From the NCBI GenBank assembly GCA_018242665.1, contig JAFEBL010000010.1:62001-126000 (forward strand): a DNA stretch of 64,000 nucleotides, given 5' to 3'. A program made the position numbers and the translations under genes. This document shows positions 21,509 through 45,078 of the stretch, piece after piece. Under the pieces are notes generated by a model. That model saw only the letters and a program-made list of their open reading frames with translations. It did no database searches and had not been told where the DNA came from. Source of the DNA: Nitrospira sp. GTDB lineage: Bacteria; Nitrospirota; Nitrospiria; Nitrospirales; Nitrospiraceae. The stretch's first letter is position 1. The number at the start of each line of letters is the position of its first letter.

Positions 21509-21529
21509 ACATGACGGGTGAGGCGCGAC

Positions 21530-27641: not shown

Positions 27642-28679
27642 TCAGTCGATCAAGGTGAGCTCGCAGGTGCGTCCCGCATTGAGAAAACTACTGTCTTGTG
27701 AAACCAACAGCGCCATACCGGCATTTGTATCGCCTTGGTCGATATTCTGGCGGTACGTTCCGTCAGTCAAAGCGCAACCCCAGACCGCGACGGCTATTTC
27801 AGTCTTACCGTTTCCAATAGTCCCTGCTGTGTCTTGGAACGAGGACTGCCAATGCTTATCGGTTGCGGAGTAATAGAACAGATAGCTTCGAGACGCGGCT
27901 GCAGTTTCACTCCCTGCCATCCACCGAGTCTTTCCCATCCGAACCTCGCAGCCGTCTGCATCGCCGCAGAGGTCGATCAAGATCTTTTCGGGGATTGGTT
28001 GTGTCTGACCGAAGGAGCGCGCTGCGGTGAGCGACATATGATACCGTGGGGAAATCTCATAGGTTTTCGTTTCTGCCTCCATGTCGCGTTGGTATACGGC
28101 CTGAGACGTCACGCCGCCATTGATCTTCGCGTTTCCCCTCACCTGTAGAGTCTCGTCAGGAGCGTCCCCCCCCTCTTGTGGGATATAACCCTTTGTCACG
28201 ATGAGGGTCGCTCCTTCAATGGCCAACTCCTTCGGCTTTGTCAGGCGCAGACGCGCATCGTAATCGGTTGTAGTCAGCCTCGCGAAATCAATGTAGGGAT
28301 TGCCCGTTCCGTTATTGCGGACTTCGATACTGGCGTTTCCGTCTACACCTCCAGCCATGGTGATCCCCGCGTTGGGGGCAGTAGATGGTTTAGATGTTTC
28401 CGGTAACACCACCTGAAAGCCTTGCGGAGTAAGACTCCCAATCCCGACGTTGCCCTTCGAGTCAATGAATAGTGCGTCGCCTTGCGCATAGAGCAGCCCA
28501 CCGCCGATAATGAGGAGCGCCAGGGGAAGGGGGCCGAGGAGACACTTGCGCAACGAGGTCGGCCATTGTGCTCGGGAGGCTTGATGCTGGGCCGCTTCTC
28601 GCTCGGCTTCCAGGGTAGTAAGCCGTTGCCGTAGCGCGGCAAGCTCCGTATACAGTTCACTCTCACGCTGTTCCTTCAT
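27642..28679 (-). CDS. Membrane-anchored fibre-like protein
   Basis: A 345-aa protein with three visible parts: an N-terminal coiled coil (residues about 5-40, rich in Glu/Arg/Leu), one membrane helix (about 50-70, LALLIIGGGLLYA), and an outer part beginning DSKGNVGIGSLTP, a motif style seen in phage tail fibres and S74-chaperone fibre proteins. The distal part carries five cysteines, some paired closely (CGDADGC). ATG at 28679 follows AAAGGAG. It is the last gene of the unknown cluster. A trimeric surface fibre is a fair guess; no enzymatic motif seen. Confidence 0.6.
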   Translation of the reverse strand: MKEQRESELYTELAALRQRLTTLEAEREAAQHQASRAQWPTSLRKCLLGPLPLALLIIGGGLLYAQGDALFIDSKGNVGIGSLTPQGFQVVLPETSKPSTAPNAGITMAGGVDGNASIEVRNNGTGNPYIDFARLTTTDYDARLRLTKPKELAIEGATLIVTKGYIPQEGGDAPDETLQVRGNAKINGGVTSQAVYQRDMEAETKTYEISPRYHMSLTAARSFGQTQPIPEKILIDLCGDADGCEVRMGKTRWMAGSETAAASRSYLFYYSATDKHWQSSFQDTAGTIGNGKTEIAVAVWGCALTDGTYRQNIDQGDTNAGMALLVSQDSSFLNAGRTCELTLID

Positions 28680-28727
28680 CGTCTCTCCTTTCAACTCAGC
28701 AGTCGTTCGTGCGTTCCGGACAGGAGC

Positions 28728-30626
28728 CTATGGGGTCTCCGGCCCCACACTCTGCATCTGTACCGTCGCGCCGATTGGCCAACGGAATTCCTTCGGCAGG
28801 CCGATACCCTGTCCCTTGAGGATCACTCGGTCGCCGGCCTGTACCCCTGGGGTGGGCGGAGCGACGACTTTGTTGGCGCTGTAGATGGTCCCCGTCCTCA
28901 GTGATGATGGCTGCAGCTCCCTGTCCTTGCTGGCCATCGGAGTAAGATCGTAGATGGCCTCATCGGAATAGCCGAGGAGCGTCCCATCGGCGGTGAACTC
29001 GCATCGAAAACCATTTCGTGGGCAGGTGTAGGGCCAATTGCCGCCATCGACAACCACCGGCATGAGCTTGTGCAGATGCATCACTTGTTTCGCCACTGGA
29101 TTGGCAACTGCGCCGGTGCGATCCCGCGTCGACTTATACCAATCGTAGCGGTTGACCCTACCGTCATGGCCCTGCACCACGAACAGCGCATTGCCATCCG
29201 GACTGAGGACTGGGGCCAGCGAAACCGTTGCGTCTTGGCTCCACAGCATGGTTGGTGCAGGACAATTCTGGATTGATGGGACACAGGGTTCGTACATGAT
29301 GGCCTGTACGATACTCGTATCGCTCGTGTTCCCCGCGACAAACACATAGTCCACAGTGGTCTCCCTGCCTCCAACCTTGATGACCTTGCTGGCCACCGCA
29401 GGTTTAAGCAATGTTTTGAGATCCGGCTTCACTTTTTTACTCTCGTCACAGGGAGCCGTTTCTGCACCACAGTGGAATATCTCGTGTACCACCGTCTCAC
29501 CTGTGGCGGTGTCCATGCGAATCAGCGCGATTTTTCTTGTCGCGTTTGTTTCTTGGATGGGAATGTCGGCAAGCGCGTAAGCATTTCGGCCATTCGCGCT
29601 GAGCGTGATGGGGCTGACCGCCGTGAACTTGAGCGTCGTACGCCAGAATTCACTCCGCGCGGCACAGCGCGAGTAATCTTTCGCGACAATGCTGCCATGG
29701 GCCTCCACGTTCTTGAAATAGAGGCTCCCATCCTGTCCCATTGCCGGCGTTTCCTCCGCGTTCACCGTGATCTGTTGCCGTCCAGCGGATGAGCATGTCT
29801 CCTGGCGCAGGTCGCAACTGTGAATCGCGTCTTTCGAGATGATCTTCATACCACCCCAAGCCGTGACGAACGCGAAGGAACCGGTGGTCACCACTGATGA
29901 GTCCGAAGCATCGAGAGGCCAACTTCGTATGCTCCCCACACCGCCGATCCGGTGAAGGCAGCTTCCCTTGTCAGCGGAGGGGCATGGGGCAACCACATAG
30001 ACGGCTCCATCGTACGAGACCGGATTGGTGAGCCTCTGGCCTTTCCACAACGGACTGGCGAAGTGTCCCACGGGCTGTTCGTATGTCCAGTCGGTGGAGT
30101 CTCTCGAGTGCGGGGGAGTCGGCAAGTCATAGGTGACGATCAGGCGAGGTCGCTCTGCAGCGGGGTCTCTATCGCCGCCGTAGTATTCCCAACTGGTGTG
30201 CGGGGATTCGGTCTGGAGCAGAAATTTGACCCTTTTATTCGGAACGCACGCCTTTGGATCCAACTCGGCAACATACGGCTTCGTCTCCTTATTCGTCTCC
30301 TTATCGGTGGCTGACCACTGCCCGACTTGCTCTTCCTTCCCTTGTGGGCTCGTCCACCGCACCTGGACGTCCTGTGAGGCGCGAGAGTCGCCTTGGTGCG
30401 GCTTAGCAACAACGCGCAACGTGCACGTTTTCACCGCAGGGTGGAATGGAAAGTCCTGGATATAGAAGGTGAGCGTCGCCTTGATGGTTGGAGCGTTAGC
30501 GGCCGCGATGGTCCATGACGGCGCTGTTTCGTCAGACAGGCTGACCCACATGCCCTCGGCTCGAAGCACGCCGGGCCACAGGAGCGCTGGGATGAAAGCG
30601 AGCACCGCAAGAAGGGTATTCTTCAT
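28728..30626 (-). CDS. Secreted beta-propeller-like protein of the unknown cluster
   Basis: A 632-aa exported protein; the signal peptide runs to about residue 24 (VLRAEG). After an N-terminal beta domain (about 25-165) come repeated strand blocks such as YDGAVYVVAP, GSFAFVTAWGG, GQDGSLYFKN and SPDGNALFVVQG, the pattern of PQQ/WD-type propellers. Many cysteines suggest disulfides. ATG at 30626 follows GAGGA; a GTG five codons earlier would be inside that site. It carries a 12-bp in-frame repeat coding KETN/KETK. It lies 17 bases after the Kelch-like gene. Family not recognised. Confidence 0.6.
   Translation of the reverse strand: MKNTLLAVLAFIPALLWPGVLRAEGMWVSLSDETAPSWTIAAANAPTIKATLTFYIQDFPFHPAVKTCTLRVVAKPHQGDSRASQDVQVRWTSPQGKEEQVGQWSATDKETNKETKPYVAELDPKACVPNKRVKFLLQTESPHTSWEYYGGDRDPAAERPRLIVTYDLPTPPHSRDSTDWTYEQPVGHFASPLWKGQRLTNPVSYDGAVYVVAPCPSADKGSCLHRIGGVGSIRSWPLDASDSSVVTTGSFAFVTAWGGMKIISKDAIHSCDLRQETCSSAGRQQITVNAEETPAMGQDGSLYFKNVEAHGSIVAKDYSRCAARSEFWRTTLKFTAVSPITLSANGRNAYALADIPIQETNATRKIALIRMDTATGETVVHEIFHCGAETAPCDESKKVKPDLKTLLKPAVASKVIKVGGRETTVDYVFVAGNTSDTSIVQAIMYEPCVPSIQNCPAPTMLWSQDATVSLAPVLSPDGNALFVVQGHDGRVNRYDWYKSTRDRTGAVANPVAKQVMHLHKLMPVVVDGGNWPYTCPRNGFRCEFTADGTLLGYSDEAIYDLTPMASKDRELQPSSLRTGTIYSANKVVAPPTPGVQAGDRVILKGQGIGLPKEFRWPIGATVQMQSVGPETP
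30280..30303. repeat. 12-bp tandem repeat, two copies, in coding sequence
   Basis: TTCGTCTCCTTA twice in a row. On the coding (minus) strand it encodes KETN then KETK, so copy number can change without a frameshift. Confidence 0.85.
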
Positions 30627-30642
30627 GGATAACGTCCTCACG

Positions 30643-32319
30643 CTAAATGGGTCTCACGTACACAAACAGGGGCGCGCCAACGACCTTACCCTGCATCGCA
30701 TGTTTATGTAAGGTCCTAAGATAGAGCCTGTTCTGTACGCCGACCACGGCGATACCATGCGGATTGTTGGTTCCGTCACCCGAAAATTCGGGGTCGGGCA
30801 ACTCGTGCCACGTATCCGATGTGCTCGTGATGCCTGACTTGTGGATCGACCACATTGCCTGCGCTATCGTCCACGAGGGGCCACCCGTTCGGTTCGTCAC
30901 GACCGTAAACAGGGTGTCTCCACAACCAGCCGCGCCTGTTCCGATTGCCTTCGCGACCACGTACCCCTCAGAACCTTTCGGTCGTAACGTCCAGGAGATC
31001 GTTTTTGATGGGGTGGTGACCCACAGATCGCCCAGGGGGTTGCCGTTTGGCGAAGACACCCCGCCGCACACCCAGATCATCTTATTGAAGTTCACCGCAC
31101 TGAATAGGCAGCGCGGCCTCCATCCTTCGGAAGACCCCTTCTTTTCGGTGCCATGCAGTGTGCTTCGATCGTTGTTATCAGTTTTGAACTCCCAGACATC
31201 CGCCAGACATGCGTAGGGCCCGAGGCCGCCCATGACCCACAGAGTGCTGTCGTCCACCACGACGCAGGCATGGCCCATGCGCTCTTTGAAACCATCGGCC
31301 CCTGTGACGGTCGCGTCCCGCCATCCTTTGGCTGGGTGCTCGAGATCGTAATAACAGATCCGCTTTGACTTCTGGTCCCAATCGACGGCGCTGCCACCGA
31401 TCAGCCACAGGCGGTTGCCAAGCCGCAGCCCAGGGCTCGATTCCATGCCGTCGGGCACCGCGTCGTTCACAGTTTTCCAGCTCGTCAGACCATCCGTCGA
31501 CTTGCACAACACCGCCTGCCGGCCAGTCTTCTCGTCCGCTCGCACAAAAATCGCGTACAGGGCGTCATCGCACTTGCCTCCCGAATCAAAGAGGACGGAG
31601 GGAAATGCCTGCCGGCCAAGCGGGTACAGTTTGTGCCAACCCGTTGTGAGCACGTTCACTGCGGCCTGTCGTCTTTTCCCATTGACCGTGAGCGTGTAGG
31701 TTCCGGTCCTATCAAGCGACTCCGTGAATGGAGATTTAGCCGACGCCACCCTCTGCCCCAATGGAGTTTGCAGACTCGCCTCGTGGTCACCAACCACCTC
31801 CCACGCGAGCGTCACGGTGCCACGGCCGATCATAAATGTCGGTTCGGCCGTGAAGTAGAGGATCGGATTGGACGGCGCCGTCGTCGGTTTGGCCTTCGTA
31901 ATGGGCAGCTTCCTGATGATGTTGCTGGGCAGGCTGCCTACCGTCCCGATGACAGTGATTTCAGACAGCCCTTCCTTGGCCCGGCAGAGCACATGACTGA
32001 TCTTGACGGAGACAGTTGACGAGCCCGCTACCGGAACGCCACCGTCAGGATCTCCGAGCGACCATGCCTTCATGGGTGCGGTTCCGGAATCTGCGGGTAT
32101 GCACCGAAGCGGAGCAGGCCCTGTACTGTCGAGTCTGATATCGTTTCCATCTTCGGATCGACGGAGCACGCCGGTGTCACCGACAGGCATCTCCAGTGTG
32201 AGCCACACAGGCTCGTCCCCTGTGAGCTGGATCGTGAACTCGAGTGTATTCGTTTTCTCGTAATCATCTCCGATCGTCAGAGATGCCGCCTTGGGCACGA
32301 GTGTGATGGTCATCGCCAT
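30643..32319 (-). CDS. Kelch-like propeller protein with N-terminal beta domains
   Basis: A 558-aa protein without a signal peptide. Residues 1-220 look like two Ig-type beta domains (ILYFTAEPTFMIGRGTVTLAW; TGTYTLTVNG). Residues about 225-555 hold Kelch-type blades, with the Gly-Gly signature repeated in LWLIGGSAVD, LWVMGGLGPY and IWVCGGVSSP, each followed by a DLW/DVWEF strand. Such propellers bind proteins or sugars. It begins 11 bases after the 1178-aa gene stop. It is one of three proteins in the cluster with propeller or beta-rich architecture; partner and ligand unknown. Confidence 0.65.
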   Translation of the reverse strand: MAMTITLVPKAASLTIGDDYEKTNTLEFTIQLTGDEPVWLTLEMPVGDTGVLRRSEDGNDIRLDSTGPAPLRCIPADSGTAPMKAWSLGDPDGGVPVAGSSTVSVKISHVLCRAKEGLSEITVIGTVGSLPSNIIRKLPITKAKPTTAPSNPILYFTAEPTFMIGRGTVTLAWEVVGDHEASLQTPLGQRVASAKSPFTESLDRTGTYTLTVNGKRRQAAVNVLTTGWHKLYPLGRQAFPSVLFDSGGKCDDALYAIFVRADEKTGRQAVLCKSTDGLTSWKTVNDAVPDGMESSPGLRLGNRLWLIGGSAVDWDQKSKRICYYDLEHPAKGWRDATVTGADGFKERMGHACVVVDDSTLWVMGGLGPYACLADVWEFKTDNNDRSTLHGTEKKGSSEGWRPRCLFSAVNFNKMIWVCGGVSSPNGNPLGDLWVTTPSKTISWTLRPKGSEGYVVAKAIGTGAAGCGDTLFTVVTNRTGGPSWTIAQAMWSIHKSGITSTSDTWHELPDPEFSGDGTNNPHGIAVVGVQNRLYLRTLHKHAMQGKVVGAPLFVYVRPI

Positions 32320-32330
32320 GGTCTTACCCC

Positions 32331-35300
32331 TTACGTCTGCTTGTCCGACACCGCGTCATGTTGATCCCGCTTCAGTCGCAACTTGAGCCAGCCCTCGCTG
32401 AGCGTCAGGCCCTCTGCGAAGCGCGCTCGGTCGTCGGCCTGCGTGATCGCGCGCCAATCGACAGCAGGCCGGGTTGCCCAGGACCACTGGCCGAAGGCAT
32501 CGGATGGCCGTGGCATGGTAGGCTGCGCCGTGCGCGCTTCCGGGCCGGCTCCCAACACCGGCGCCACGGCGATATAGAACTCCTTGATGAGGTCCAGTTG
32601 CTTGCTCACCTCTGCCGGTAGCTGGATGGCGTGGCGTGGAAGAATGCCGGTGGAGGCATGCACCCGGGCGCTCGCATCCATGAGCAGGGTCAGTGTCACT
32701 GGATCACCGGCACACGCCACCGAGAGCTGTTGATCATAGGTGATACGGGCGCTGTTACCAAGACGACGCGTGGCACCGTCACTGGCCACGAGGCAGGGCG
32801 CCCCGTTCTCGGGCACGTAACCGACAAGACCGTCGGCGGGCAGGGCCATGCCGCCCAACCGGACCGGCACGCGCAACGTTTCCACGCCCTCCGTCTCGAA
32901 CGTCCACGTCCCATCGGTCTTCCAATAGCCGGCAGGCAGCCCCTGCAGTTCGAGGTCCAGGGACGCGTGGACGAGGGCCAGCGGACGGCCGAGCAGCACC
33001 GCCATGGTCGGGTCCTCGAGGGGAAGCCGAGCCTCTGTCTTGCGCAGCACCAGCTCGACCATCTCCAGGAAGGCCTGCCCTTCGTCCGCACTGAACTCCG
33101 TCGCCAGCTGCACGAAGCGTTTGAGACGCTCGTTGCTAATGCCGCTGATTTGGAGGGTTGAACCGGGTCTCGGACGCCACTTGAATGTGACCGGTGAGTG
33201 GATAGTTTTTTCACCGCTCGCCGGCAGCACGCTCTCCAGCGCACCGAGCGGCTCCCCGTTCGCGCTGAACAGGGCGAAGCTCTTTTCGAGAAAATTGGGG
33301 ACCATCCATCCACAGACCGGCCCCGATGCGGATGCGTCGGCCGACTGCCACTCAACATTCAACCGCGCGGGCTGGGGCAATCTCGGGCTGAAGCTCGCAT
33401 GATATTCGCTGGGCGTGGGTGACAACTCTGCCGAGGCGATCATGGTCGCCGGTGAACCGCCTGGGCTGGAATCAATCAGCTTCCGTACCTGGCCGAAGGT
33501 ATCGACAAGATACAGGTTGACGAGCGCGAGCGCGCCGGCACGCACCGGCAAGAAGGTTCGTATGACCGGCAGGGTCGGCTGCGGGCCTTTGCCCATGGCC
33601 TCCCACATCGAGGCGTCCACCTGTGTGCTGGTCGGATTAACCGGAGGCAGGCAGAGACCCAGCGTTTGCCGAAGTAATTGATCATTGAAGCCACCCAAGG
33701 ACTGGCCTAAGACCTCCGTCTGCGTGATGCTCGTGAGGTTATCGACGTCGCGTCCAGCTGTCTCCGCAAACTCACGAAGATGCTTCGCCAGCTGCGCACC
33801 GGACAGCGGCAAGACAATCGTGGCGTCTTCGAGGTCGAGTGGAGTGCCCGCGATGTTTGGGGAAGCGCCCGGCGGAACGAGGTCGCCGGTGAGCGGGCCT
33901 GAACCGAATCGCCAGCCGTCGAGTGACGTGCTGTGCCTGTTGGCAGAATCTTCTGCGGGGGTATATGCCGACGCCCAGCGTACCTGCCACATCAGGTACA
34001 GGGGCAGCCATGGGTTGGTCTCACGGTTGGTCTCAGGGTTGGTCTCACCCCAACGGGTGACAGCCAGTGAGTCCGGCGTCTTCCCGCTCCAGGTCAGTGT
34101 CGTGAGGCCAGACTGACTAGACTGGTCAAGACTCTTCTGGAGCGCTTGAAAGAGGCGGTCGTCTGCCGTGGGGATCGCACTCGAGCAGCTTGGATCGAAG
34201 AGGAGTGCCTCGAGCGCAAGCTTCCGCGCGAGGTCGCCACACCGCACTCCCGCCACATTCGGCACAGAAAAGTATGTGTCCGCCGACCATGTCGCGCTCG
34301 TCATCCCGCTCTGGCTCACGCCTGACACCACCGCCTTCGCCGGCCGGCACCGCACGAGACTAATCGTGTTCTGATCACCGCCTGTTGCGCTGACGCGGGC
34401 AGGACCAACCAGGTTCTCTCCCTTCATGACCACGAACGGATCTTTCGGATGCAGGAACGGCGGCATCGTCGACTCGACGAGCTGCATACCAGTCTGCTGT
34501 TCAGTGAGGACCGTGCGCACACGCGCCTTGCACCGGTCGACCTCCTGCTGATATTGCGGAAGTCCGTGCACGGCCTGGTTCAGTTTTTCCTGAGCCAACG
34601 TCACAGGCGCCAGGCCTGGCCGACGCGGCGGCGGACCGGTCTGCATCCTGGCCCACGTGACCCAGCAGGCAAACAGTTGCGAACGCAACGACTCGATCTC
34701 CCGTGCATGCCGGTCGTACCGCTGCTGGGCCTGGTTCAGCGCATCGAGGCGCGTCAGAACGTCCGCAGACAGCGCGGGGAGAGGCTGTTGCGCCTCGGCT
34801 GAGCGGGCGATCGGCTCGATGGACCAAGAGGTGCCACCCGCCACGGCATTGAAGCCGTGCCGGTGCAGCAATTCACCGAGTTGGTAGTGGTCCGCCACCT
34901 GCGTGGCCTGCCCGTGCTGAAACGCGCAGAGGATGTGCTCAAGTCTGTTCCTGTCGGTCACGTCGGGAGACGTTGGGGCATTGCGCGCCATGAGGGCAGC
35001 CACCGCCTCGGCCGCACTGCCGCCGATCGCGACGGTTGGCGACGTTGAGCCGGCAGGTGTCGAGGGATACGTCTGCCCCGCCCCTTGCCAGGTCAGGCCC
35101 ACGACCGCTCCATGACAGAGCGTCCGCTGCGGCAGGGCTCCCGCTTCAAGATCGGGGCAGGACCACCCCAAGCCCGCTAGGCGCGCTTGACAACTGTTCA
35201 CGATATCCGATTGATCGATGGGGTGAAACGGATCCTTGGCCTGGTCTGAATACCAGCCCAGGACAAGGTAGGTGAGCTGCTGGCCTTGCGCGACACCTTC

Positions 35301-35867
35301 CATTTTGTCGTGAAACCCGAGCACACCTTTGCAGGCGGGGTAATAGGCGGCAAACGACGGATCGCCCCACCCGGACGCGGTCAGCTCGAAGCGGTAGGCG
35401 CTCTGTGTGTCCTGCCACTGTTCAAGCGGCACGGTACGTCCGACGTATTTGACCGCGAGCGACGGGCTGAAAAACAGGAACGGCGTGCCGCCGGACTGTT
35501 CCGAATCATCGACGTAGTCGCTTTCGACCACCCAAGCCTTTGAGGAGATCGTCGGATTACCGGCCGCATGGCCCAGACGCAGGACGAGCCAGCGGTTGGG
35601 GATGCATGGCTGCACGGGTGCCTTGTCGCCCTCATGACGTGCCTGCGTGAGCGCGGTCGGCAGCGCCCAATGGAGATGGATGCCCGACTCCAATTTTTGG
35701 GTCAACTTGCGGCCTTCGAACGAAAACGCATACTTGCGGTCTCGATACCAACTCTTGAGATCATCCGTCGTGCGAGGCACGGGGGCGAGGTCGTATAGCG
35801 GGTCAGCGGCAGGCTTCCCGACCACGAACGCCTGCACGTTGGTCGGCACCAAGAGGTAGTCGTTCAT
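32331..35867 (-). CDS. Large unknown protein (1178 aa)
   Basis: No recognised family. No signal peptide. It starts MNDYLLVPTNVQAFVVG and continues with mixed alpha/beta sequence; residues about 395-475 are helical and probably coiled (ESLRSQLFACWVTWARMQ; QQEVDRCKARVRTVLTEQQ), the second half is beta-rich. A 4-residue tandem repeat (ETNP/ETNR/ETNP) occurs just before a Trp-rich PWLPLYLMWQVRW block. The start codon overlaps the preceding 757-aa gene's stop (ATGA) behind GGAGG, so the two are made in step and may form a complex. The size and pairing suggest a structural or baseplate-like role, but this is only a guess. Confidence 0.6.
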   Translation of the reverse strand: MNDYLLVPTNVQAFVVGKPAADPLYDLAPVPRTTDDLKSWYRDRKYAFSFEGRKLTQKLESGIHLHWALPTALTQARHEGDKAPVQPCIPNRWLVLRLGHAAGNPTISSKAWVVESDYVDDSEQSGGTPFLFFSPSLAVKYVGRTVPLEQWQDTQSAYRFELTASGWGDPSFAAYYPACKGVLGFHDKMEGVAQGQQLTYLVLGWYSDQAKDPFHPIDQSDIVNSCQARLAGLGWSCPDLEAGALPQRTLCHGAVVGLTWQGAGQTYPSTPAGSTSPTVAIGGSAAEAVAALMARNAPTSPDVTDRNRLEHILCAFQHGQATQVADHYQLGELLHRHGFNAVAGGTSWSIEPIARSAEAQQPLPALSADVLTRLDALNQAQQRYDRHAREIESLRSQLFACWVTWARMQTGPPPRRPGLAPVTLAQEKLNQAVHGLPQYQQEVDRCKARVRTVLTEQQTGMQLVESTMPPFLHPKDPFVVMKGENLVGPARVSATGGDQNTISLVRCRPAKAVVSGVSQSGMTSATWSADTYFSVPNVAGVRCGDLARKLALEALLFDPSCSSAIPTADDRLFQALQKSLDQSSQSGLTTLTWSGKTPDSLAVTRWGETNPETNRETNPWLPLYLMWQVRWASAYTPAEDSANRHSTSLDGWRFGSGPLTGDLVPPGASPNIAGTPLDLEDATIVLPLSGAQLAKHLREFAETAGRDVDNLTSITQTEVLGQSLGGFNDQLLRQTLGLCLPPVNPTSTQVDASMWEAMGKGPQPTLPVIRTFLPVRAGALALVNLYLVDTFGQVRKLIDSSPGGSPATMIASAELSPTPSEYHASFSPRLPQPARLNVEWQSADASASGPVCGWMVPNFLEKSFALFSANGEPLGALESVLPASGEKTIHSPVTFKWRPRPGSTLQISGISNERLKRFVQLATEFSADEGQAFLEMVELVLRKTEARLPLEDPTMAVLLGRPLALVHASLDLELQGLPAGYWKTDGTWTFETEGVETLRVPVRLGGMALPADGLVGYVPENGAPCLVASDGATRRLGNSARITYDQQLSVACAGDPVTLTLLMDASARVHASTGILPRHAIQLPAEVSKQLDLIKEFYIAVAPVLGAGPEARTAQPTMPRPSDAFGQWSWATRPAVDWRAITQADDRARFAEGLTLSEGWLKLRLKRDQHDAVSDKQT
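34013..34048. repeat. 12-bp tandem repeat, three copies, in coding sequence
   Basis: GGTTGGTCTCAC/G three times without gaps. On the coding strand it gives an ETNP/ETNR-type four-residue repeat in the 1178-aa protein. In-frame unit length allows expansion or loss without breaking the gene. Confidence 0.85.
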
Positions 35868-38137
35868 ACCGTCCTCCTCCCTCCCGACACCTCAGCGTCC
35901 CGCGTATCAGGAGCCGTGAAGATCACCTTCGCAGGCGACTCGATCATCTCGACGGCAAATTCGGCGGACGTGAAGACATCCGTGTTCGCCAGCTGTTGCT
36001 TGTCGACCAATTTCTTGCGAATCTCTTCCGCCAATTCGGACACCTTGACGACCCGCATGCCTCTGTTGTCCTTCGGGACCTGAACCGGTCCGTCGAGCCC
36101 GGCACCACGGGACACGGCGTCCCCCTTGATGGTTCGCAGCTGAGTCTTCTGATGCCCGCCGCCTTGCTTGCTCGCCGCGCCGAAATGGATGGCCTCCGCC
36201 GGCTGCGCAACCTCGATCTTGGTGACCTGGCCGTTGTACAGGCACAGCAGAATGTCAGGAGCCAGGCGGTCCATGCGTAAAATCTGTAGCGGATCGAGTG
36301 TGTTGCCGGCCGAGTCCACCCCAGTGGCCTTGGCCTCCAAACCGATCCATGCTTCCACCGCGTCTGAACGAAGCAGAAAGCCGGATAGGGGCCAGTGCAG
36401 CGCGGCCTCCGCTTGTCGGCTGGGCGGCGCCGGAGTGCTGCTCTCTGTCTCGTGAGCGCCCTCTCGGCGTTGGTCGGCCGCCTGCTTCGCGCTCGACCGG
36501 AGTTGGGATGCCAGTTTCTCCGAGACCTCGAAGAAATGCGCGCGCAACAACTGGTCCGCCAATTCGTCCGTCTCGCTGGTGCGGCCGACACTGCACGCGC
36601 CTTGCAGCAGACAATTGAGCCACTCGGGATTGAGGTAGAAGAACCGGATCGATTCCGCGGGCAACATGGCCTCGTCCGGCACGAGATACTGAAACGGCAC
36701 GCCATAGAGCAGCATGGCCTGGCCAAGCCAATTCTGCACGGTCGCCGGTATGGGAGGCGGCGAATCGGCGGACGGCTTGGAGACGGGGCCGCCAGTGCCT
36801 TGCACATACCCGGCTTTCTTCAGCGCACTCGTGTACCAATCCCGGAGGCTCTCACGCGTACTGCCCAGCTTGTCCTGAAGGGTTTTTCCCCGTTGCGCCA
36901 TGGCGCCGAGAGCCTCCGTGTTGGTCTGCCGGATCCAGCGCTGGTACTCGGTGCGGAATCGAAACAGAGCCTGGGCAAAGGCCTGATCTTGCAATGTCAA
37001 CAGCCGCCCCAACTGCCAGGCGGCGGCGAAACTAGCATCGAACATACCGGTGTCAGGATGGTAGCGCAGCGCCGCATCCGCGCAGGAGATGTCCCGATAG
37101 CTCATCGCTCGCTGGTATGACATGGGAACGAGCGGCCCTCGATACCAACTGATGGTGGTGTTCTCATTGCGCAGGTCGTGGTTGACGGGAACAAAACCCA
37201 TCGTGAAGGCGGTGTTGACGTAGGTCCCTGCCTGGCTATCCGGTTCGGACAGGCGCGGCTGGCTGAGGAGGCGCGTCGCATCAAGGCCTTTCATCAGGCT
37301 CTTGAACTCGCTGCTTCCCTGGCACGTGAAGCGCCAGGATCCAAGCACCACCAACCGGCAGCTCTGTACGCCCTGTGGCAACGTCTTCGTCTGCAGATAG
37401 TTGCTCCAGCCTTCGAGCGACACGAGGCACACCGTGTTGACGATGCCCCAATCCTTCTCGCCCTGTGCCATAGGCTGCGTCTCGGGAAACCGATTACAGA
37501 CGACGACGGAGAACGTTCCCTCCTTGAGCAGCGACCAGGTCTCCTTGTTGTCGGTTTGCACCTCGCGAACATGGGCGAGGTACTGAAGATCCTCCTTGCG
37601 CGGCATGACCGCGCTGAACACGTCGACCGGCAGATCAATGGTCTGGCACAGATCGGTCTTCGCATCGTACGGGTCCATCTGAACTGACGGGCCGAGGATG
37701 CCTCCTGCGTTCTGGTTCAACACGTCTGCCAACGGCCTCGGGACAATCGGCGGCACGCGCTTCTCAGTCGCATGGGCGAAATCGGTGTCCGTCAGCAGGA
37801 TCAACGCCAGCCACGGATCGTGGGCCTGTGTGGGATTCGAGCCGTCAATCGTTCTCTCCCAGGGCAGCGTGCAACGGTCGAAGACGATGTGTGGCAGGGT
37901 GTCGTAGAACTGGCCGATCTGGTCCGGCGCCGGATAACAGGAGTAGGCTTCTGAGCCTGTCAGCGCGTAACGCGGTCCGCCGACATGAAACGTCTCGGCT
38001 ACAGATTGTGTGGCGAGCGAGGTCTCGCCGGCCTTTAAGGTCGGCGTCACGGTGACCGTATACTCTCCCGGCGCAAGGGTTGGGAGCCAGTCGCTATAAA
38101 ACGTGATCTGTTCGGCCTTGGTTGTGTGATGTCCCAT
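35864..38137 (-). CDS. Large unknown protein (757 aa)
   Basis: No recognised family and no signal peptide. Residues about 15-50 look like an Ig/CARDB-type beta strand set (LAPGEYTVTVTPTLKAGE). The middle has blocks such as DPWLALILLTDTDF and a helical AAAWQLGRLLTLQDQAFAQA at about 380-405, then a helix-rich linker and an acidic C-terminus. It lies 10 bases after the giant beta-rich gene and overlaps the 1178-aa gene, fixing its place in the operon. Short segments (NPW/DPWL followed by LYL/LIL) loosely recall the 1178-aa protein, so distant kinship is possible. Confidence 0.6.
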   Translation of the reverse strand: MGHHTTKAEQITFYSDWLPTLAPGEYTVTVTPTLKAGETSLATQSVAETFHVGGPRYALTGSEAYSCYPAPDQIGQFYDTLPHIVFDRCTLPWERTIDGSNPTQAHDPWLALILLTDTDFAHATEKRVPPIVPRPLADVLNQNAGGILGPSVQMDPYDAKTDLCQTIDLPVDVFSAVMPRKEDLQYLAHVREVQTDNKETWSLLKEGTFSVVVCNRFPETQPMAQGEKDWGIVNTVCLVSLEGWSNYLQTKTLPQGVQSCRLVVLGSWRFTCQGSSEFKSLMKGLDATRLLSQPRLSEPDSQAGTYVNTAFTMGFVPVNHDLRNENTTISWYRGPLVPMSYQRAMSYRDISCADAALRYHPDTGMFDASFAAAWQLGRLLTLQDQAFAQALFRFRTEYQRWIRQTNTEALGAMAQRGKTLQDKLGSTRESLRDWYTSALKKAGYVQGTGGPVSKPSADSPPPIPATVQNWLGQAMLLYGVPFQYLVPDEAMLPAESIRFFYLNPEWLNCLLQGACSVGRTSETDELADQLLRAHFFEVSEKLASQLRSSAKQAADQRREGAHETESSTPAPPSRQAEAALHWPLSGFLLRSDAVEAWIGLEAKATGVDSAGNTLDPLQILRMDRLAPDILLCLYNGQVTKIEVAQPAEAIHFGAASKQGGGHQKTQLRTIKGDAVSRGAGLDGPVQVPKDNRGMRVVKVSELAEEIRKKLVDKQQLANTDVFTSAEFAVEMIESPAKVIFTAPDTRDAEVSGGRRTV

Positions 38138-38146
38138 GCAGGATCC

Positions 38147-41100
38147 TTAGAGACCTTGTCCCAGCGCAGCGCAAGTGGGCGACGCCTGGAACTGCTCACT
38201 CGGGTCGGTGATGGCGATCTCGTTCCACCGGGAGTGTCCGGACCTCGCCACGCGCGATGTGGCGTCTCGCCGTACAAGGCAATCGCGGATCTGTTTGCGT
38301 AACTCGTTCGCCACCGCCACCCGGTCGAACGCGCGATTGGTCGCAGCCGGCTTCGCCGGGGGTGTCCCCCAGGGGATCGTCTTGGGAATCGTTTCATGCT
38401 TGAATTGCGCGATGCCGAAGGGGCCCAGGGGATGGGCCGGCAGCGTGGGTTGCACCCGAAGGACCACGCCCGATGGCACGTCCGGCATCATCTCCGCCTT
38501 CGGCTGACTTGACGCCGCCGTCGCGCTCCAGAGCGCCTCGGGATAACTTTTACGCGACCATTGCACGGCCGTGAAGCTGCCCTCGACATTGCCTCCCGCG
38601 CTGGTCTTCAGACTGACCGCATGCACGGACGTGAGGCTGGTTTTGGCCATCGGCCGGATACCGAGCGTGGATGTCCCGCGTTGCTTCTGGTTGCCCAGGG
38701 TGACGTCCGTGCACGGCACGACCGAATCCGTTTCGATCATCAATTCGTGGGGATTGGCGATCCGATACGTCCTTTCGACGCCCTGCGTATCCTTCTTCAC
38801 CTCACGCACCAGCCCTTCGGTGATGCGGATGGTATTCAAGGACGCGTAGTACACTCCTGTCACAGTCTTCGCAGGCGGCGGCAGGAAGGCTTTCTGGAAG
38901 TCGTCCCACCCCAACGCCGGAGGCGGCGCGCTTTTGGTGTTGCCGAATTCAACCGTGAACGAGAGAATCCAGAGCGTCACCGTCGCGGTGCCGGCAAATG
39001 GAGGCCCCCAGATGTGCAATCTTGCAGCAATCTCCAGTTTGAATGTCCGAAAACTCCGATAGATGATCGCAATGCCCATTCCGATTTTGGCGTCGTAGCG
39101 GAAGGGCGCCCAGGCGATGAGAAAATCCGCATAGGCGAGGAATGCCGCAGTGAGATTCCCACTCTCGAACACCGCCGCCAGCTTGAGCCCGGCCATGAGG
39201 CAGGAAGGCGTCAGGGCGAGGTAGGCTTCGCCCACGATCGTCAGCTCCTTGGAGAGCTGCGCACGAATGCCCACGCGCGGCACGACTGGATAGTGTGGCG
39301 GCGGCAGGAACTCGGGGTGATACCCTCCCAGCGAGATGACGAAATCGCCGGCTTCCTTGGCTTTGCCGAACCACACAAAGAACGCAAAGCCGCCGGTGAG
39401 CCGAATCCGTGCATCGAAGACAAAGGAATTGTCGGTCAGCCGCCCTTCGATGCTGAACACCCCGGCATCCGGGTCGAGGACGGCACGGATTTGCAGCTCG
39501 GCATAGACCGCACAGTTGCCGGAAGCGGGCCCCGGGGGGAGGGTCAGCTTCGTCAACCCCAGCAGAGCAAACTGCAGCCGATTGCCGAAAGCGACCGAGA
39601 GCAGCGCAAACGAGTCGGCGATCTTGAAGGAGGTGAACTTCACCCCGATCGCAACCCAGTAATCTCCAGCTGAAGGCAACACGGCGTCTCGAAGCTTGGC
39701 CATCTCGAATTTGGCCGGGTTGGTCACCGCCGTGACGAGAGGGAATTCCGCGACTTGCTCCACCGGCGGCAAGGCCAGCCGCATGTTGTAGCCACCGCCC
39801 AAGGCCAGACCGGTGACGAAAAACGCGGGCGGTCCCCCCACCACCCCGACATAGGCTCCATACAAGAACAAGGAAGGCTTCTTCTCTTCCCCGACTTTGA
39901 TCGTCCCGTACGACCCCACGACGGCGATCTGAAACACTTGCGTCTTGATGAGAAGGTGGCCCTCGTACAGGTAGTCTTCGTAGGGTGCGGTCGCCTTCGT
40001 TCTCGCGAACCCGCCGGAGACGGCCAACGTCGGATTTGAGTAGGCGATGCTGAGGCCATCGAGGCCCACGCCGATCTGCGTGATCTTGCCCGGGTCCTTG
40101 GTCAGCTCCAGCGGCAGTGTCAGAGGAAAGTTGAGATTGAATCCGTGCAGGTCGAGTTCGAACCCGCCGCTCCCAAGCGACGCGTCGAGCAGCACATACA
40201 CGCGCTTGCCGCGGGAGTCATCTCGCGATTCGAAGCGGACCTTGCGGAACGTGATCGGACCGATCGTGCGCCCGACCTTGACGTTGTTCCCGCCTTCCTC
40301 TCGCTTCGGCAGGGTCTCAACACTCACCGATGAAGTCGCGTCAGGCTTGTTTGCCCGAGCAGCAGGTAAATCTCCTGTGTCGGTTCCGTTTTCCGAAGTG
40401 GCGCTTGCCTGCGCAGCGGGCTGCTCGCCGCCAAGCCGACATTCAAACGGGTAACTGAACGACGTCTGCTCGAACTCCAATGCGCCTTGGAGAAACAGCC
40501 CCTTGCTGATGGCATAAGATTTTTGATCAAGTTCCAGCTTTGCGTGCTCGCTCGACGTGAGCGACTCGTTCGCCGCCAGAATCACCAGGTTCTTGAGCGC
40601 AATGTTGTACGGGTCCAGCGCCTTGCCGAGCGCCCCCAGCTGTCGTGTGGAAAGCTTCGGCGGTTTCAGGCCGAACGCCACAATGGTGGCCGGCGGCTCC
40701 TTGCGCGACACCAACAGGAACGCGGCACTCAGTTGGTCTATAGCGCAGACCAGCGAGAGCCTGGTTTCTCGCTCCTCGATCGTCAGCGTCAGACTCGCAT
40801 TCGTGGGAATGAGCCGTTCGCCCAGCGTGGACAGATCTAACCGCCCGTCGCCGATGGCCGTGAGGTCAAGGCGCGGCTTGCCCTCCTGATATTGCCAGGT
40901 CGCGCAAAGCTCCTTCTTGGTCGTGTCCTTCGCAAACTGCAAGCGGAATTCGGCATCGCCGACGATCAACGTCCCGCCGAATTGCGCCTTCTTGGTCGTC
41001 CCGTCTATGGCAATGTCGACCGTGCAGGCCAGCATCGGACCCTCGGTGCTGAGCGGGATGTTTCCTTGGCAACGAAAAGCCATACTCTTCGTGCCCGTAT

Positions 41101-42496
41101 TGAACGACACCGACAGATGCTCAATGGTAAAACCTTCGAGCGCAGGGGGCAGGACGGCAGCCGGGTCAAATGCCCGGATCAGTTTCTTGATTTCAATCTT
41201 CTGCCCCGTGTGCCCCCTGAACTCCCAGCCCCCCTCTGACGTGGCCTGCTTTTCTGCGGAGAGCCTCAGCGTCACCACATCGGGAATGGTGAGATCAACG
41301 AGGATCCGTGCGCCGATCTTGCCTTCTGACCGTTCGAAACTAAAGTACTCGACATTCAGGTTCAGCCCATTGAACCCCCATTGCACGCTCGTTTGGCCAC
41401 TGACGCTCACGTGCCCGCCCTTTGGCACAGCCGTAAAGAGAATATTGGTCAGCGCCACGTTCGGGAAGCCGTCGGGCAGAGATAAGGAGGTGGTGCTTTG
41501 GAGTAGCTCCTGTGAAATGCTGGTGAGATTAATGGTGGTACCGACGGGGGTTTCACCCGACAATGTCCAGCCTTGGTCCCCATCGTACTCGGCAGAGAGC
41601 ACAAAGTTGGCGCCGGCCAACGTCAATTGGCCTTCCATTCCGAAACTGGTCTGTGCGGAAGACGAATTCTCCGATCCAACGTACTCGAGCCACAACGCGA
41701 GGCCCGTCAGGCCATAGGATTTGCCAGCCAACTGAAACGTCCACATCCCACCCGCATCCACGCCGAGTTCCGCCGAGAAGCTCTTCGTGGAAAAATTCCC
41801 CGCCACCTCCATGGTGGTAATAGTTAAATCTTTGTCCCCCACATCGATCCCGGCCTTCAGATTCGTCAGAAGGGCCTTCAGAGAGAGCGTTTTCTTCTCG
41901 GGCAGTCCCGCGAAGAAATTCAAATCGGGGAAAGAGAGCGTCGTCTCAATCGCCACTGCGGCAGCCCCTTCCCCGAACAACCATTGTCCGGCGATGGTGC
42001 CCTCGATTGAGCGCATCTTCGCATCGAAGGGGGCATAGATCTGCATCTCCAGCGTCGGGGCGATCGAGATGATGCCCGGGATCAGATGGATCGGAGTCTT
42101 CGTGGCGAGGGCAAGAGACACGGCCGACACTGATGGTTCAGCTAGGTTCAGTATTACGGTCAGTTCCGATAGTTGGATGCTCAACACATCTTTCAGCAGG
42201 CGGGTCATCGGCTCAGGGAGAACGGATGGCGCCGTATCGCCCCGGTTCTCGCCGACCTGAGCTGACTGAAGCAGGTTCACGATCTCTTGGAGCGAGGGAA
42301 AGTTACGGCAGGAGAGCGAGAGTTCCGGATAATAGGGATGCAACTCGGCTTGGATGGTCAACGTCTTGGAGCCAATCGTCATGGCTCCATCGAAGCCAAT
42401 CTGAACACCAAGCCCCTCTCGAACCAGTGGAAGGGTCAGACGAATACTCGTCAGATTTAGCTGAAGGCTCCCACACTGTATAGCGGCTGCTGGCAT
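38147..42496 (-). CDS. Giant beta-rich protein, main part (1449 aa) of a frameshifted gene
   Basis: Long stretches alternate hydrophobic and polar residues with repeated units of about 100-150 residues (for example LTLAGANFVLSAEYDGDQGW; GLNLNVEYFSFERSEGKIG; FELDLHGFNLNFPLTLPLEL), which suggests a very long beta-sheet or beta-solenoid protein. From memory it resembles large bacterial proteins annotated DUF6603; I cannot confirm this. The ATG at 42496 has no ribosome site. Its frame is open upstream as far as a G9 tract, where one extra base would join it to the 241-aa frame, giving about 1678 aa. So this is best read as the main part of one broken or frameshift-controlled gene. Confidence 0.7.
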   Translation of the reverse strand: MPAAAIQCGSLQLNLTSIRLTLPLVREGLGVQIGFDGAMTIGSKTLTIQAELHPYYPELSLSCRNFPSLQEIVNLLQSAQVGENRGDTAPSVLPEPMTRLLKDVLSIQLSELTVILNLAEPSVSAVSLALATKTPIHLIPGIISIAPTLEMQIYAPFDAKMRSIEGTIAGQWLFGEGAAAVAIETTLSFPDLNFFAGLPEKKTLSLKALLTNLKAGIDVGDKDLTITTMEVAGNFSTKSFSAELGVDAGGMWTFQLAGKSYGLTGLALWLEYVGSENSSSAQTSFGMEGQLTLAGANFVLSAEYDGDQGWTLSGETPVGTTINLTSISQELLQSTTSLSLPDGFPNVALTNILFTAVPKGGHVSVSGQTSVQWGFNGLNLNVEYFSFERSEGKIGARILVDLTIPDVVTLRLSAEKQATSEGGWEFRGHTGQKIEIKKLIRAFDPAAVLPPALEGFTIEHLSVSFNTGTKSMAFRCQGNIPLSTEGPMLACTVDIAIDGTTKKAQFGGTLIVGDAEFRLQFAKDTTKKELCATWQYQEGKPRLDLTAIGDGRLDLSTLGERLIPTNASLTLTIEERETRLSLVCAIDQLSAAFLLVSRKEPPATIVAFGLKPPKLSTRQLGALGKALDPYNIALKNLVILAANESLTSSEHAKLELDQKSYAISKGLFLQGALEFEQTSFSYPFECRLGGEQPAAQASATSENGTDTGDLPAARANKPDATSSVSVETLPKREEGGNNVKVGRTIGPITFRKVRFESRDDSRGKRVYVLLDASLGSGGFELDLHGFNLNFPLTLPLELTKDPGKITQIGVGLDGLSIAYSNPTLAVSGGFARTKATAPYEDYLYEGHLLIKTQVFQIAVVGSYGTIKVGEEKKPSLFLYGAYVGVVGGPPAFFVTGLALGGGYNMRLALPPVEQVAEFPLVTAVTNPAKFEMAKLRDAVLPSAGDYWVAIGVKFTSFKIADSFALLSVAFGNRLQFALLGLTKLTLPPGPASGNCAVYAELQIRAVLDPDAGVFSIEGRLTDNSFVFDARIRLTGGFAFFVWFGKAKEAGDFVISLGGYHPEFLPPPHYPVVPRVGIRAQLSKELTIVGEAYLALTPSCLMAGLKLAAVFESGNLTAAFLAYADFLIAWAPFRYDAKIGMGIAIIYRSFRTFKLEIAARLHIWGPPFAGTATVTLWILSFTVEFGNTKSAPPPALGWDDFQKAFLPPPAKTVTGVYYASLNTIRITEGLVREVKKDTQGVERTYRIANPHELMIETDSVVPCTDVTLGNQKQRGTSTLGIRPMAKTSLTSVHAVSLKTSAGGNVEGSFTAVQWSRKSYPEALWSATAASSQPKAEMMPDVPSGVVLRVQPTLPAHPLGPFGIAQFKHETIPKTIPWGTPPAKPAATNRAFDRVAVANELRKQIRDCLVRRDATSRVARSGHSRWNEIAITDPSEQFQASPTCAALGQGL

Positions 42497-43182
42497 TTGT
42501 GCGCTGAACCGGGCGTACGCACCCCTTTCCCCCGCAGAAACGAGGACTGGGATTGCGTCAGCTTCGGCAAGACGTGTCTCCCCCCCCCGTTCTGCTGCAA
42601 CAGTTCCCAGACGTAGCCGGTGAGATCGTCATCGAGCGTAGCCTCCACCTGGAAATTGAGCCCTTTTCGTACCAGGTCTTTCGGCAACGTCATCGCGTAT
42701 GTTGAGGGGTAGAATGTGCGGTCGTCCTTGGGCAGGAGGCTGTAATCTAGAGAAGAAAACAGCATCGGCTGTGCATTGAAGCGAATCGTCGAGATGATGT
42801 CCTCTAGCTCGCGGGCACCCGATTGCTTGAAGTACGAGACTGCCTCACTATCCGAAGGAATGGTCAGACGAAACACCACATGACGTTCCGGTTGAGCTAC
42901 TGCAGATGGTGAATCGAACAGACTGACGTCGACCCGGACATTTTTCCAGGGGAAGAGCTGTTGAAAACTGCCCGACCAGGTGAGCGCTGTGATAGCCTCG
43001 GTGCCGGATGGGGGCTCCGTCGAGAGCTGACAGCCCGTCACGCAGAACTCTTTCTGATGAGGGAACACCTGTTTGAGGAAGGCAAGCACACTCGCGCCCG
43101 CGACGCCTTCATCAAGCGTGACAGACTGATTCTGTTTAATCTGTGCTGTGACTGCAGCTAGCGGTTTCGGTTGCGATGCCAT
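42457..43182 (-). CDS. N-terminal part of the giant beta-rich protein (241-aa frame)
   Basis: Frame of 241 aa starting MASQPKPLAAV. Residues 1-202 look like genuine protein of the same strand-rich style as the 1449-aa part (FRLTIPSDSEAVSYF; LNFQVEATLDDDLTGYVWE). After the G-tract at NGGG the remaining 38 residues look like random out-of-frame sequence rich in Ser, Gly and Cys. It overlaps the 1449-aa frame by 40 bp. Adding one G at the tract, or a -1 ribosomal slip, fuses the two. Confidence 0.65.
   Translation of the reverse strand: MASQPKPLAAVTAQIKQNQSVTLDEGVAGASVLAFLKQVFPHQKEFCVTGCQLSTEPPSGTEAITALTWSGSFQQLFPWKNVRVDVSLFDSPSAVAQPERHVVFRLTIPSDSEAVSYFKQSGARELEDIISTIRFNAQPMLFSSLDYSLLPKDDRTFYPSTYAMTLPKDLVRKGLNFQVEATLDDDLTGYVWELLQQNGGGRHVLPKLTQSQSSFLRGKGVRTPGSAHKCQQPLYSVGAFS
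42580..42588 (-). other. G9 homopolymer at the frameshift point
   Basis: Nine C on the + strand, read as nine G in the coding strand, directly after AAC. With G9 the 241-aa frame continues to a stop at 42457. With G10 the reading passes to ETRLAEADAIPVL and on, in frame with the 1449-aa protein. With G8 a stop follows within ten codons. It is the only such long single-base run noted inside a gene of the window. Confidence 0.85.
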
Positions 43183-43326
43183 GGTCTGCTGATGTCACTC
43201 CCGTTACCGTATCGAACTGCCGAAATAGAACAACCAGGGCTGGTCTCGACCGAACCGACCACACACATCGTGGCTCACTCGTCTTTCACAATCCTCACGG
43301 TTTCATGCGACCACGCGCGTCTCGCG

Positions 43327-45078
43327 CTACTTAAAATTCTGAATCTCATCCCACTCTTGTGGAGAAAACATCTTCTGCATATCCGTGAGACTTCTCCCTT
43401 TCGACAGCGCACATAACACCAGACACACCGCGAGGTATGTTTTGAGGTCGGCTAACTCTGGTGGAAGGTTGACCGGCTGCTGCCCTGCGAGAGGAAATGC
43501 GGGTATACTCGGACTGACCCCCCACCCTGTTGTTGAGGATGGCTTAACGCTATTAATCCAGGTTACTAGGGGGGCAGCCCAAGTCTGCTGTTGGTCCAGG
43601 ATGCGCAGAAAAATCTCAAACTCTGAAGCAAACGTGGAGTTCTCCCCTACTCCTAGGCATTGGCTGAGCGATGCGATATTTTTGCGGTTCCCAGGCTGTG
43701 CGAAGTAGTTCAACAGGTCGGTGAATGTAGCACTGAAGACCCATGGTTCATCTGGATCATTTGCTGCATGAGCGGGCACCATTGTGATGGGAAACCCGTT
43801 TCCGCGTCTATCCTCAACTAGCCTTTCCCGAACTTTGTACGGCTCGTGAGAGTTGATACTGAAAACTCTCGTGATATCTGGGATCTTGTACGGAACGCCT
43901 ACGGCACAATGATATCGTTGCTGTGTGATGGGGTCCCCTTCCAGCGAAATCCGAAGGCTTGGCAGGGTGTGGTTCAACCCGTGGTGAAACGTCTCCCCGC
44001 CAATGGTGGGAGAGCTAAAGGTGACCAAGCGCATGGCGCTCCATGGCCACGCTCGTAACGTTTGCGGCATGGCCGGCCCCGTCGCATTCGGCCCATATTC
44101 CGCCCCTAACAACATCGAGCTTGCAAATTGCCCCGCCAGTGCTCCTCCCAGACTGTGCCCCGTGACATGGATATATCTTGGAGGGGCGTTGTTGCGAGCC
44201 ACGTGAATTTTGGCCAGCGCGTCCATCAGCGTTGGTAAGATGGTCTTAAGGCTCGACCGAAACCCTGTAACCACTGAACCTGTCGAGCTGATAACTGCAT
44301 CTTTCTCAACCTTCTCAGAGATCCCTAGGTCCGTTACCCAGTCGGGGTTGCCTTTTTTTTCATTTGATTCGCTTGGCCTAAGCGTCCCGCTACGACTCCC
44401 CCGAAATACGATGAAGACATCGTACACCTGCAAGGCAGTATCTACCCTGGCGAGCACATACCCCATCATGCTCCAGAGGGGAGGTTTGGATTCCGAGCCG
44501 CCGGTTCCGCCCTCGAAGCAGTACAATAAGTCCGTTGCTTGAGGAGCTTGATACGTATTTAGTCTTAGTTTTAAAGTAGTAAGGGAGGGACGAACCGCGT
44601 GGATTGGATCTACTACGATTGTAGGTTGTGCTTGCGTCGAGGTCTTATATGGCCAGGGGCACGGCCCTCCCGTATCATATCGCACCATGCGAACGTCACC
44701 GATGCGATCGGTAATCTCAACTGGCGTATTGTAGATAAGCCACCCCTCCTTCTCCCTGCGGGGCCTGGTGAAGCCGGGTCGCCAGGGGTACAGGCGATCG
44801 TATCTGGACACGATTGGATCCAGGCGTTGATTATCAGTGTTTGGCCAATTCATGCACGAACTTGGCCCACGGTAGGCGGATGGACCTGGTTGTAGCCATT
44901 GATAACCATGAACGGTTGGCAGGAAACGTTTACGCCGCCTCATCGTCTTATCTATTGGTTTTACCCCCGCCTCACGCGTCTGCTCATAGTAAGGATCCAT
45001 GGGCCAGATGAGGGTCTGAGCATGTAACTGGTAGGAAAAGATGCAGAGGTCTAACAGATACACGGGCAAGTCATACAT
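43327..45078 (-). CDS. Class 3 lipase-like alpha/beta hydrolase
   Basis: A 583-aa hydrolase with the lipase-3 pattern: the oxyanion strand VYDVFIVFRGSRSG at about 218-231, the nucleophile elbow VTGHSLGGALAG (Ser309), and TFSSPTIGG downstream, where the catalytic Asp/His should follow. No signal peptide. The first 160 residues are unusual (many Trp, Tyr and Pro; an RRRKR patch at about 47-51) and not part of the lipase fold. It is the first gene of the unknown cluster, 144 bases before the giant protein. Its base composition is clearly more AT-rich than neighbouring genes, hinting at recent acquisition. Substrate unknown; lipids or polyesters are typical. Confidence 0.8.
   Translation of the reverse strand: MYDLPVYLLDLCIFSYQLHAQTLIWPMDPYYEQTREAGVKPIDKTMRRRKRFLPTVHGYQWLQPGPSAYRGPSSCMNWPNTDNQRLDPIVSRYDRLYPWRPGFTRPRREKEGWLIYNTPVEITDRIGDVRMVRYDTGGPCPWPYKTSTQAQPTIVVDPIHAVRPSLTTLKLRLNTYQAPQATDLLYCFEGGTGGSESKPPLWSMMGYVLARVDTALQVYDVFIVFRGSRSGTLRPSESNEKKGNPDWVTDLGISEKVEKDAVISSTGSVVTGFRSSLKTILPTLMDALAKIHVARNNAPPRYIHVTGHSLGGALAGQFASSMLLGAEYGPNATGPAMPQTLRAWPWSAMRLVTFSSPTIGGETFHHGLNHTLPSLRISLEGDPITQQRYHCAVGVPYKIPDITRVFSINSHEPYKVRERLVEDRRGNGFPITMVPAHAANDPDEPWVFSATFTDLLNYFAQPGNRKNIASLSQCLGVGENSTFASEFEIFLRILDQQQTWAAPLVTWINSVKPSSTTGWGVSPSIPAFPLAGQQPVNLPPELADLKTYLAVCLVLCALSKGRSLTDMQKMFSPQEWDEIQNFK

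Follow-up and report, generated by a model that had tools for sequence, protein, structure and literature searches.

Extracellular contractile injection systems (eCIS) and tailocins are built from particle proteins without export signals, carry exchangeable fibre or binding parts and enzymes, and spread horizontally. Polymorphic toxins (Rhs, CDI and two-partner systems) pair a constant carrier with interchangeable enzymes, the class of which goes with a linked region. Both sets of traits recur in a gene cluster of Nitrospira sp. at positions 27642–45078, minus strand, of the window, the 64,000-nucleotide stretch of contig JAFEBL010000010.1 analyzed here; a particle is in this case something that we infer from genes. 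The giant protein of the cluster is a clear member of DUF6603 (PF20248), a family without an assigned function, with a score of 443.9 bits (Pfam gathering cut-off 27; E 9e-133, residues 742–1214). The literature open to us without subscription contains no paper naming DUF6603, and nothing was found there on the four-gene context and enzyme-coupled N-terminus of the family, on combinations of the enzymes described below or on ApoB-like bacterial proteins. The cluster may be a modular enzyme carrier, in which the DUF6603 N-terminus docks an enzyme and an Ig-like protein binds the target, a reading that we judge evenly poised between right and wrong.

The eight ORFs, called as the longest ORFs, all read leftward, and their positions reproduce the gene order of the original prediction, its ATGA overlap and its 144-base gap after the lipase. 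A 583-residue class-3 lipase (43327..45078; Pfam Lipase_3, 3.7e-12) occupies what is here termed the enzyme slot. It is followed after 144 bases by the DUF6603 gene, present as a 241-residue 5’ part containing an enzyme-class-specific N-terminal region (42457..43182) and a 1449-residue remainder (38147..42496), which overlap by 40 bases; the remainder holds an N-terminal region shared by long types and then the DUF6603 core. The genes for the 757-residue (35864..38137) and 1178-residue (32331..35867) core proteins are joined by the ATGA overlap. The fourth core protein, an Ig/Kelch protein (30643..32319), precedes a secreted PQQ/BamB-like propeller (28728..30641) and a fibre protein with a coiled coil, a membrane segment and a ‘GNVGIG’ motif (27642..28694). 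The remaining intergenic gaps are 9, 11, 1 and 33 bases. A Nitrospira relative, L017, has the identical gene order and ~76% identity to the window in the 757 protein; its DUF6603 is a single 1684-residue ORF, residues 1–219 and 199–294 of which match the window in two frames (tblastn). Because this ORF is intact and the homology changes frame near 42.5 kb, the split frame that had been noticed in the giant protein is indeed a frameshift within one gene, which may be either a mutation or a sequencing error.

The cluster is an accessory island inserted at a variable site. Its flanks, a LexA-like regulator (26425–26976) and a molybdate-type permease (47007–47681), lie 20.0 kb apart in the window and only 3.06–3.50 kb apart in twelve congeners (G005, G008, G009, G011, G012, G014, G015 and G021–G025), which identifies the cluster as an insertion; the spacing is 5.6–7.1 kb in four further congeners (G006, G016, G019 and G026). 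The 757 gene is present in 3 of 29 genomes of the genus, the other two copies at 43–46% identity. The window also contains tandem, near-alike molybdate-type ABC permease/ATPase pairs (45928–47681 and 48617–50370), which are duplicated in several congeners as well.

Relatives of the cluster are widely distributed. Two 757 peptide patterns scanned against 84,980 genomes retrieved 145 relatives, and the best 80 loci were read. By profile, 74 of these 80 contain DUF6603, 70 contain the 1178 protein and 61 contain the Ig protein; DUF6603, 757 and 1178 occur together in 67, always on one strand, and 55 of these encode the Ig protein too. Most loci among the 80 that are missing a core gene are short contigs. 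The four proteins are thus co-conserved across at least eleven phyla, with carriers in Nitrospirota, Acidobacteriota, Pseudomonadota, Bacteroidota, Thermodesulfobacteriota, Cyanobacteriota, Actinomycetota, Myxococcota, Verrucomicrobiota, Chlorobiota, Bacillota and SAR324, as expected from the original prediction that they form one set. The expectation that the gene order would recur in distant genomes holds for linkage but not for a fixed order: the 1178 gene is often placed ahead of DUF6603 in Cyanobacteria and Actinomycetota, so that linkage is retained while order varies. Polyketide-synthase genes lie 3’ of the core in five loci of Hahella and Cyclobacteriaceae type (L077, L081, L085, L095 and L096, ~16400–22390), whose DUF6603 proteins are 3160–3184 residues long.

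A further check, avoiding selection by 757, used DUF6603 alone as the query in 198 Bacteroidota genomes. Ten genomes (~5%) exceed the cut-off, eight of them new, giving nine new loci. A strong 757 gene adjoins DUF6603 in six of the nine, and the other three, which belong to a divergent branch, have a weak 757-like neighbor (E 1.8e-11 to 1.7e-6). In the divergent branch (L119 3110–9755, L120 2398–12237 and L121 2341–9002), the partners of DUF6603 are a ~1075-residue protein weakly related to 757 and a third protein of large size, and L119 has a subtilase upstream.

The gene directly upstream of DUF6603 encodes, depending on the locus, a lipase, metallo-beta-lactamase (MBL), nuclease-like protein, EEP, calpain, PhoD, GIY-YIG, DUF4135 or subtilase. 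The window lipase scores 46.8 bits against a cut-off of 22 for PF01764 and has the Ser-Asp-His motifs; the Ser of TGHSLGG, the Asp of EGDPIT and the His of NSHEPY are kept in alignment in L017, L069 and L075, which also have a class-3 lipase in the slot. The MBL family fills it in 14 loci, calpain in three (L061, L068 and L086) and an Exo_endo_phos type in L057 and L072. For several loci the slot class was assigned from motifs recognized by eye, including the Exo_endo_phos type of L074 and the GHGFGG-containing class-3 lipase fragments of L077, L081, L085, L095 and L096. In six loci (L027, L031, L038, L060, L064 and L084) the slot protein conserves the motif QEWCHLxxHxDxxxxxxxNxVxGSxxxNTEQ; this His/Asn-motif family matches no known family, and we take it to be a putative nuclease. 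Nine held-out loci contain MBL twice, the His/Asn-motif family, GIY-YIG (weak, 0.0011), DUF4135 and subtilase once each, and no slot enzyme in three. A small protein sits in the slot in groups cl2 (Bacteroidota) and cl8 (a Nitrospira-like group), and since these groups and several cyanobacteria have no slot enzyme, the enzyme is not essential. Two cyanobacterial loci have an enzyme-slot gene masked with N (L055 3388–5253 and L062 3242–5113). This Nitrospira genome has a second DUF6603 gene (L100, G000:C50 1–4860), cut at the contig end, whose slot is filled by a PhoD-like phosphatase; a search of the assembly turned up no further 757 gene. Replacement of the lipase by other hydrolases in the same slot supports the earlier view that it is the assembly’s enzyme.

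The N-terminus of DUF6603 varies with the slot. At least 525 residues precede the DUF6603 domain in the enzyme loci measured and at most 408 in the small-protein loci, with no overlap (Mann-Whitney p 6e-9, without correction for relatedness). Likeness over the first 300 residues is seen in 17 of 94 within-class pairs and 4 of 231 between-class pairs, a class signal reached by none of 5000 label shuffles, as against 902 of 5000 for the DUF6603 core, to which labels are irrelevant; such counts across loci are not independent, and phylogenetically independent pairs number only three, all of which agree. The core matches across enzyme classes, and same-class matches of the first 300 residues cross phyla. 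Judged from sequence comparison, enzyme class and DUF6603 N-terminus are coupled, and the held-out sample agreed. Class specificity is imperfect, as the His/Asn-motif and calpain classes have first-300 likeness in common, and some long N-termini have no upstream enzyme (the 3223-residue protein of L115 and others). In the DUF6603 tree, the window and L017 are nested among the short, enzyme-free cl8 proteins (99% support), as L027/L084 are in the short cl2 group (95% support), which implies at least two joint gains of a long N-terminus and an enzyme. The core from the window lies closest to the short-type, enzyme-free cl8 cores (E 1e-150), but its N-terminal part resembles those of other long types, indicating a replaced module. 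Among the N-terminal parts searched, the 241-residue ORF matches only that of the L017 protein. That first-300 similarity follows enzyme class is the main evidence that the N-terminus would dock the enzyme.

An AlphaFold2 (AF2) model covering residues 480–1449 of the 1449-residue ORF (970 residues; pLDDT 73 overall, ~90 over residues 370–650) predicts one extended antiparallel meander, many of whose strands are amphipathic. Of the leading PDB matches, the beta belt of apolipoprotein B100 has the lowest rmsd (Z 15.2, rmsd 7.6 Å over 275 residues), with porins tying in Z at 12–15 Å; as modeled, the ApoB100 likeness is one that a generic open beta sheet would show. DUF6603 has no sequence relation to ApoB100, and lipid binding is conjectured from the model. 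An outer-membrane barrel is unlikely, because the protein has no signal peptide and occurs in Gram-positives. The 757 and 1178 proteins have no credible match in Pfam (as single proteins or aligned relatives), NCBIfam, PADLOC, PHROGs or PDB sequence profiles, and they are unrelated to each other by profile-profile comparison. The patterns used identify no 757 relative among viral contigs and phages. Elsewhere 757 is often encoded by two adjacent genes (~430–510 and ~280–340 residues), split near residue 410–460 (L002, L003, L015, L018, L032, L039, L067, L072, L077, L085, L091 and others), which points to repeated fusion or fission. The 1178 model (pLDDT 78, pTM 0.78) has a long helical hairpin, and PDB and viral fold libraries return for the model only generic helical hairpins (best Z 7.2), a result that is not proof of a new fold. 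In Chitinophaga (L027 and L084) 1178 is fused to the Ig protein.

The Ig-like N-terminal region of the fourth core protein (~residues 13–221) recurs in 68 loci by iterated HMM searches across all loci gathered, and is joined to diverse heads. Among 54 members these include Kelch (16), LamG (8) and phage tail collar (5), in addition to other propellers, S74, F5/8C, PLAT and B-lectin; the heads are recognition modules. The window head is a Kelch propeller (Pfam Kelch, 1.9e-13), exceeding the cut-offs of PF24681 (50.7 vs 50), Kelch_4 (39.4 vs 21.6) and Kelch_1 (30.2 vs 20.1). Sec signals are rare in the core (757, 0/97; 1178, 1/60; DUF6603, 2/75; Ig protein, 4/75) and common in the propellers (20/21). 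As previously noted, only the last two genes of the cluster have export or membrane signals, a Sec-like N-terminus in the propeller and an internal hydrophobic segment near residue 57 in the fibre protein; the lipase and core proteins have none. The propeller family is common to 21 loci, one relative (L090) matching PQQ_2 at 8.8e-11, and relatives of the fibre protein match phage families of tail fibres and collars. These two proteins are accessory, occurring in ~21 of 80 loci, and neither is seen in the Actinomycetota and Cyanobacteria loci.

A constant core, an enzyme port, a recognition port, missing Sec signals and heads of outside-binding type together give the layout of a released enzyme-carrying particle; docking, assembly, release, the target and a harmful effect are all steps that we infer. 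In such a carrier, the constant core of DUF6603, 757, 1178 and the Ig-like protein would be produced in the cytoplasm. DUF6603 would contribute a large amphipathic beta sheet, probably wrapping lipid, membrane or a partner protein, and its long N-terminal part would dock one exchangeable enzyme, here the class-3 lipase. The Ig protein would present one exchangeable binding head, here the Kelch propeller, and in a subset of lineages that includes the window, the secreted propeller and the membrane-anchored fibre would be added. Exit would most likely occur via lysis or another non-Sec route, after which the enzyme would reach the target that the assembly binds, probably another cell. Neither an export route nor a lysis gene was found, no immunity gene was identified, and no recurrent small gene was recognized beside the slot enzyme.

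The main rival to the enzyme carrier is an intracellular conflict or immunity assembly, in which the variable head senses an invader and the core releases or activates the hydrolase inside the cell. Absent Sec signals on core, head and enzyme would suit such a role; systems of this kind typically use nuclease, lipase, calpain and MBL effectors, and one Streptomyces locus is near a CATRA conflict protein. The core proteins, however, match no PADLOC model of known anti-phage defence at E 0.1, and neither an ATPase nor an NTP-dependent sensor occurs among them. Heads of the tail-collar, LamG, F5/8C and lectin kinds typically recognize ligands outside the cell, and in many loci the secreted propeller and fibre accompany the core; we consider this explanation unlikely. 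These two accessory proteins would instead be central if, as the original prediction suggested, the assembly were surface-attached, with propeller and fibre anchoring it to the envelope and the lipase acting on external lipid. They adjoin the core in the window and in relatives from Nitrospira, Acidobacteriota, desulfobacterial lineages and Bacteroidota, but only in about a quarter of loci, and core and lipase have no export signal, which makes surface attachment distinctly unlikely.

It is quite improbable that the cluster serves lipid or small-molecule metabolism, with DUF6603 carrying lipid or scaffolding granules and the slot enzymes doing the processing. The ApoB100-like amphipathic sheet and the polyketide-synthase genes downstream in Hahella and Algoriphagus-type loci are consistent with it, but calpain, GIY-YIG, subtilase, MBL and EEP have no common lipid substrate and the binding heads would be left unexplained. 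Finally, the cluster could be cargo of an eCIS: Pvc16_N is present in 29 of 50 core genomes, the Nitrospira genome has an eCIS elsewhere, and L028 has a PAAR gene next to DUF6603. Against this, 21 of the 50 core genomes have no Pvc16_N, and core clusters contain no eCIS gene seen other than this PAAR. Pvc16_N occurs in 3 of 10 DUF6603-containing Bacteroidota genomes, two of the three chosen beforehand, versus 35 of 188 others, and this candidate, which we regard as highly improbable, was dropped for lack of co-occurrence across the 198 genomes. The eCIS-like cluster of the Nitrospira genome is on another contig (L101, G000:C28 5001–25000), with sheath, tube and Pvc16-type genes followed by two proteins that are DUF4157-like by eye. 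The PAAR spike gene (L028 770–1072, Flavipsychrobacter), the sole one in the loci, is two genes upstream of DUF6603.

Returning to the enzyme carrier, we tentatively propose, as something possible but short of an even prospect, a widespread undescribed delivery particle: an ApoB-like DUF6603 belt and two unclassified partners as carrier, an N-terminal port for at least eight enzyme classes, an Ig-based exchangeable head, spread by insertion, and exit without a dedicated secretion machine. If true, it would represent a new kind of bacterial effector-carrying assembly whose modules are freely swapped in nature, found in ~5% of sampled Bacteroidota and in Nitrospira, Cyanobacteria, Actinomycetota, Acidobacteriota and others. 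DUF6603 and three more conserved protein families would gain a function, and the docking code between carrier and enzyme would be directly testable.

Such a particle would differ from each of the systems it resembles. Unlike eCIS and tailocins, the cluster lacks sheath, tube, spike, baseplate and AAA ATPase genes by Pfam, NCBIfam and PHROG scans, in agreement with the original prediction that it is not a standard injection machine; it is also unassociated with the eCIS marker in Bacteroidota, and the sheath gene of this genome is on another contig. TcA, TcB and TcC domains of the Tc toxin complex are absent by Pfam from the cluster proteins and from relatives of 757 and 1178. Unlike polymorphic toxins, the cluster has no recognized immunity gene, its carrier is unrelated by Pfam, and its enzyme is encoded by a separate gene upstream of DUF6603 rather than as a C-terminal fusion. 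To the DUF6603 family itself, the present analysis adds a four-gene context and an enzyme-coupled N-terminus.
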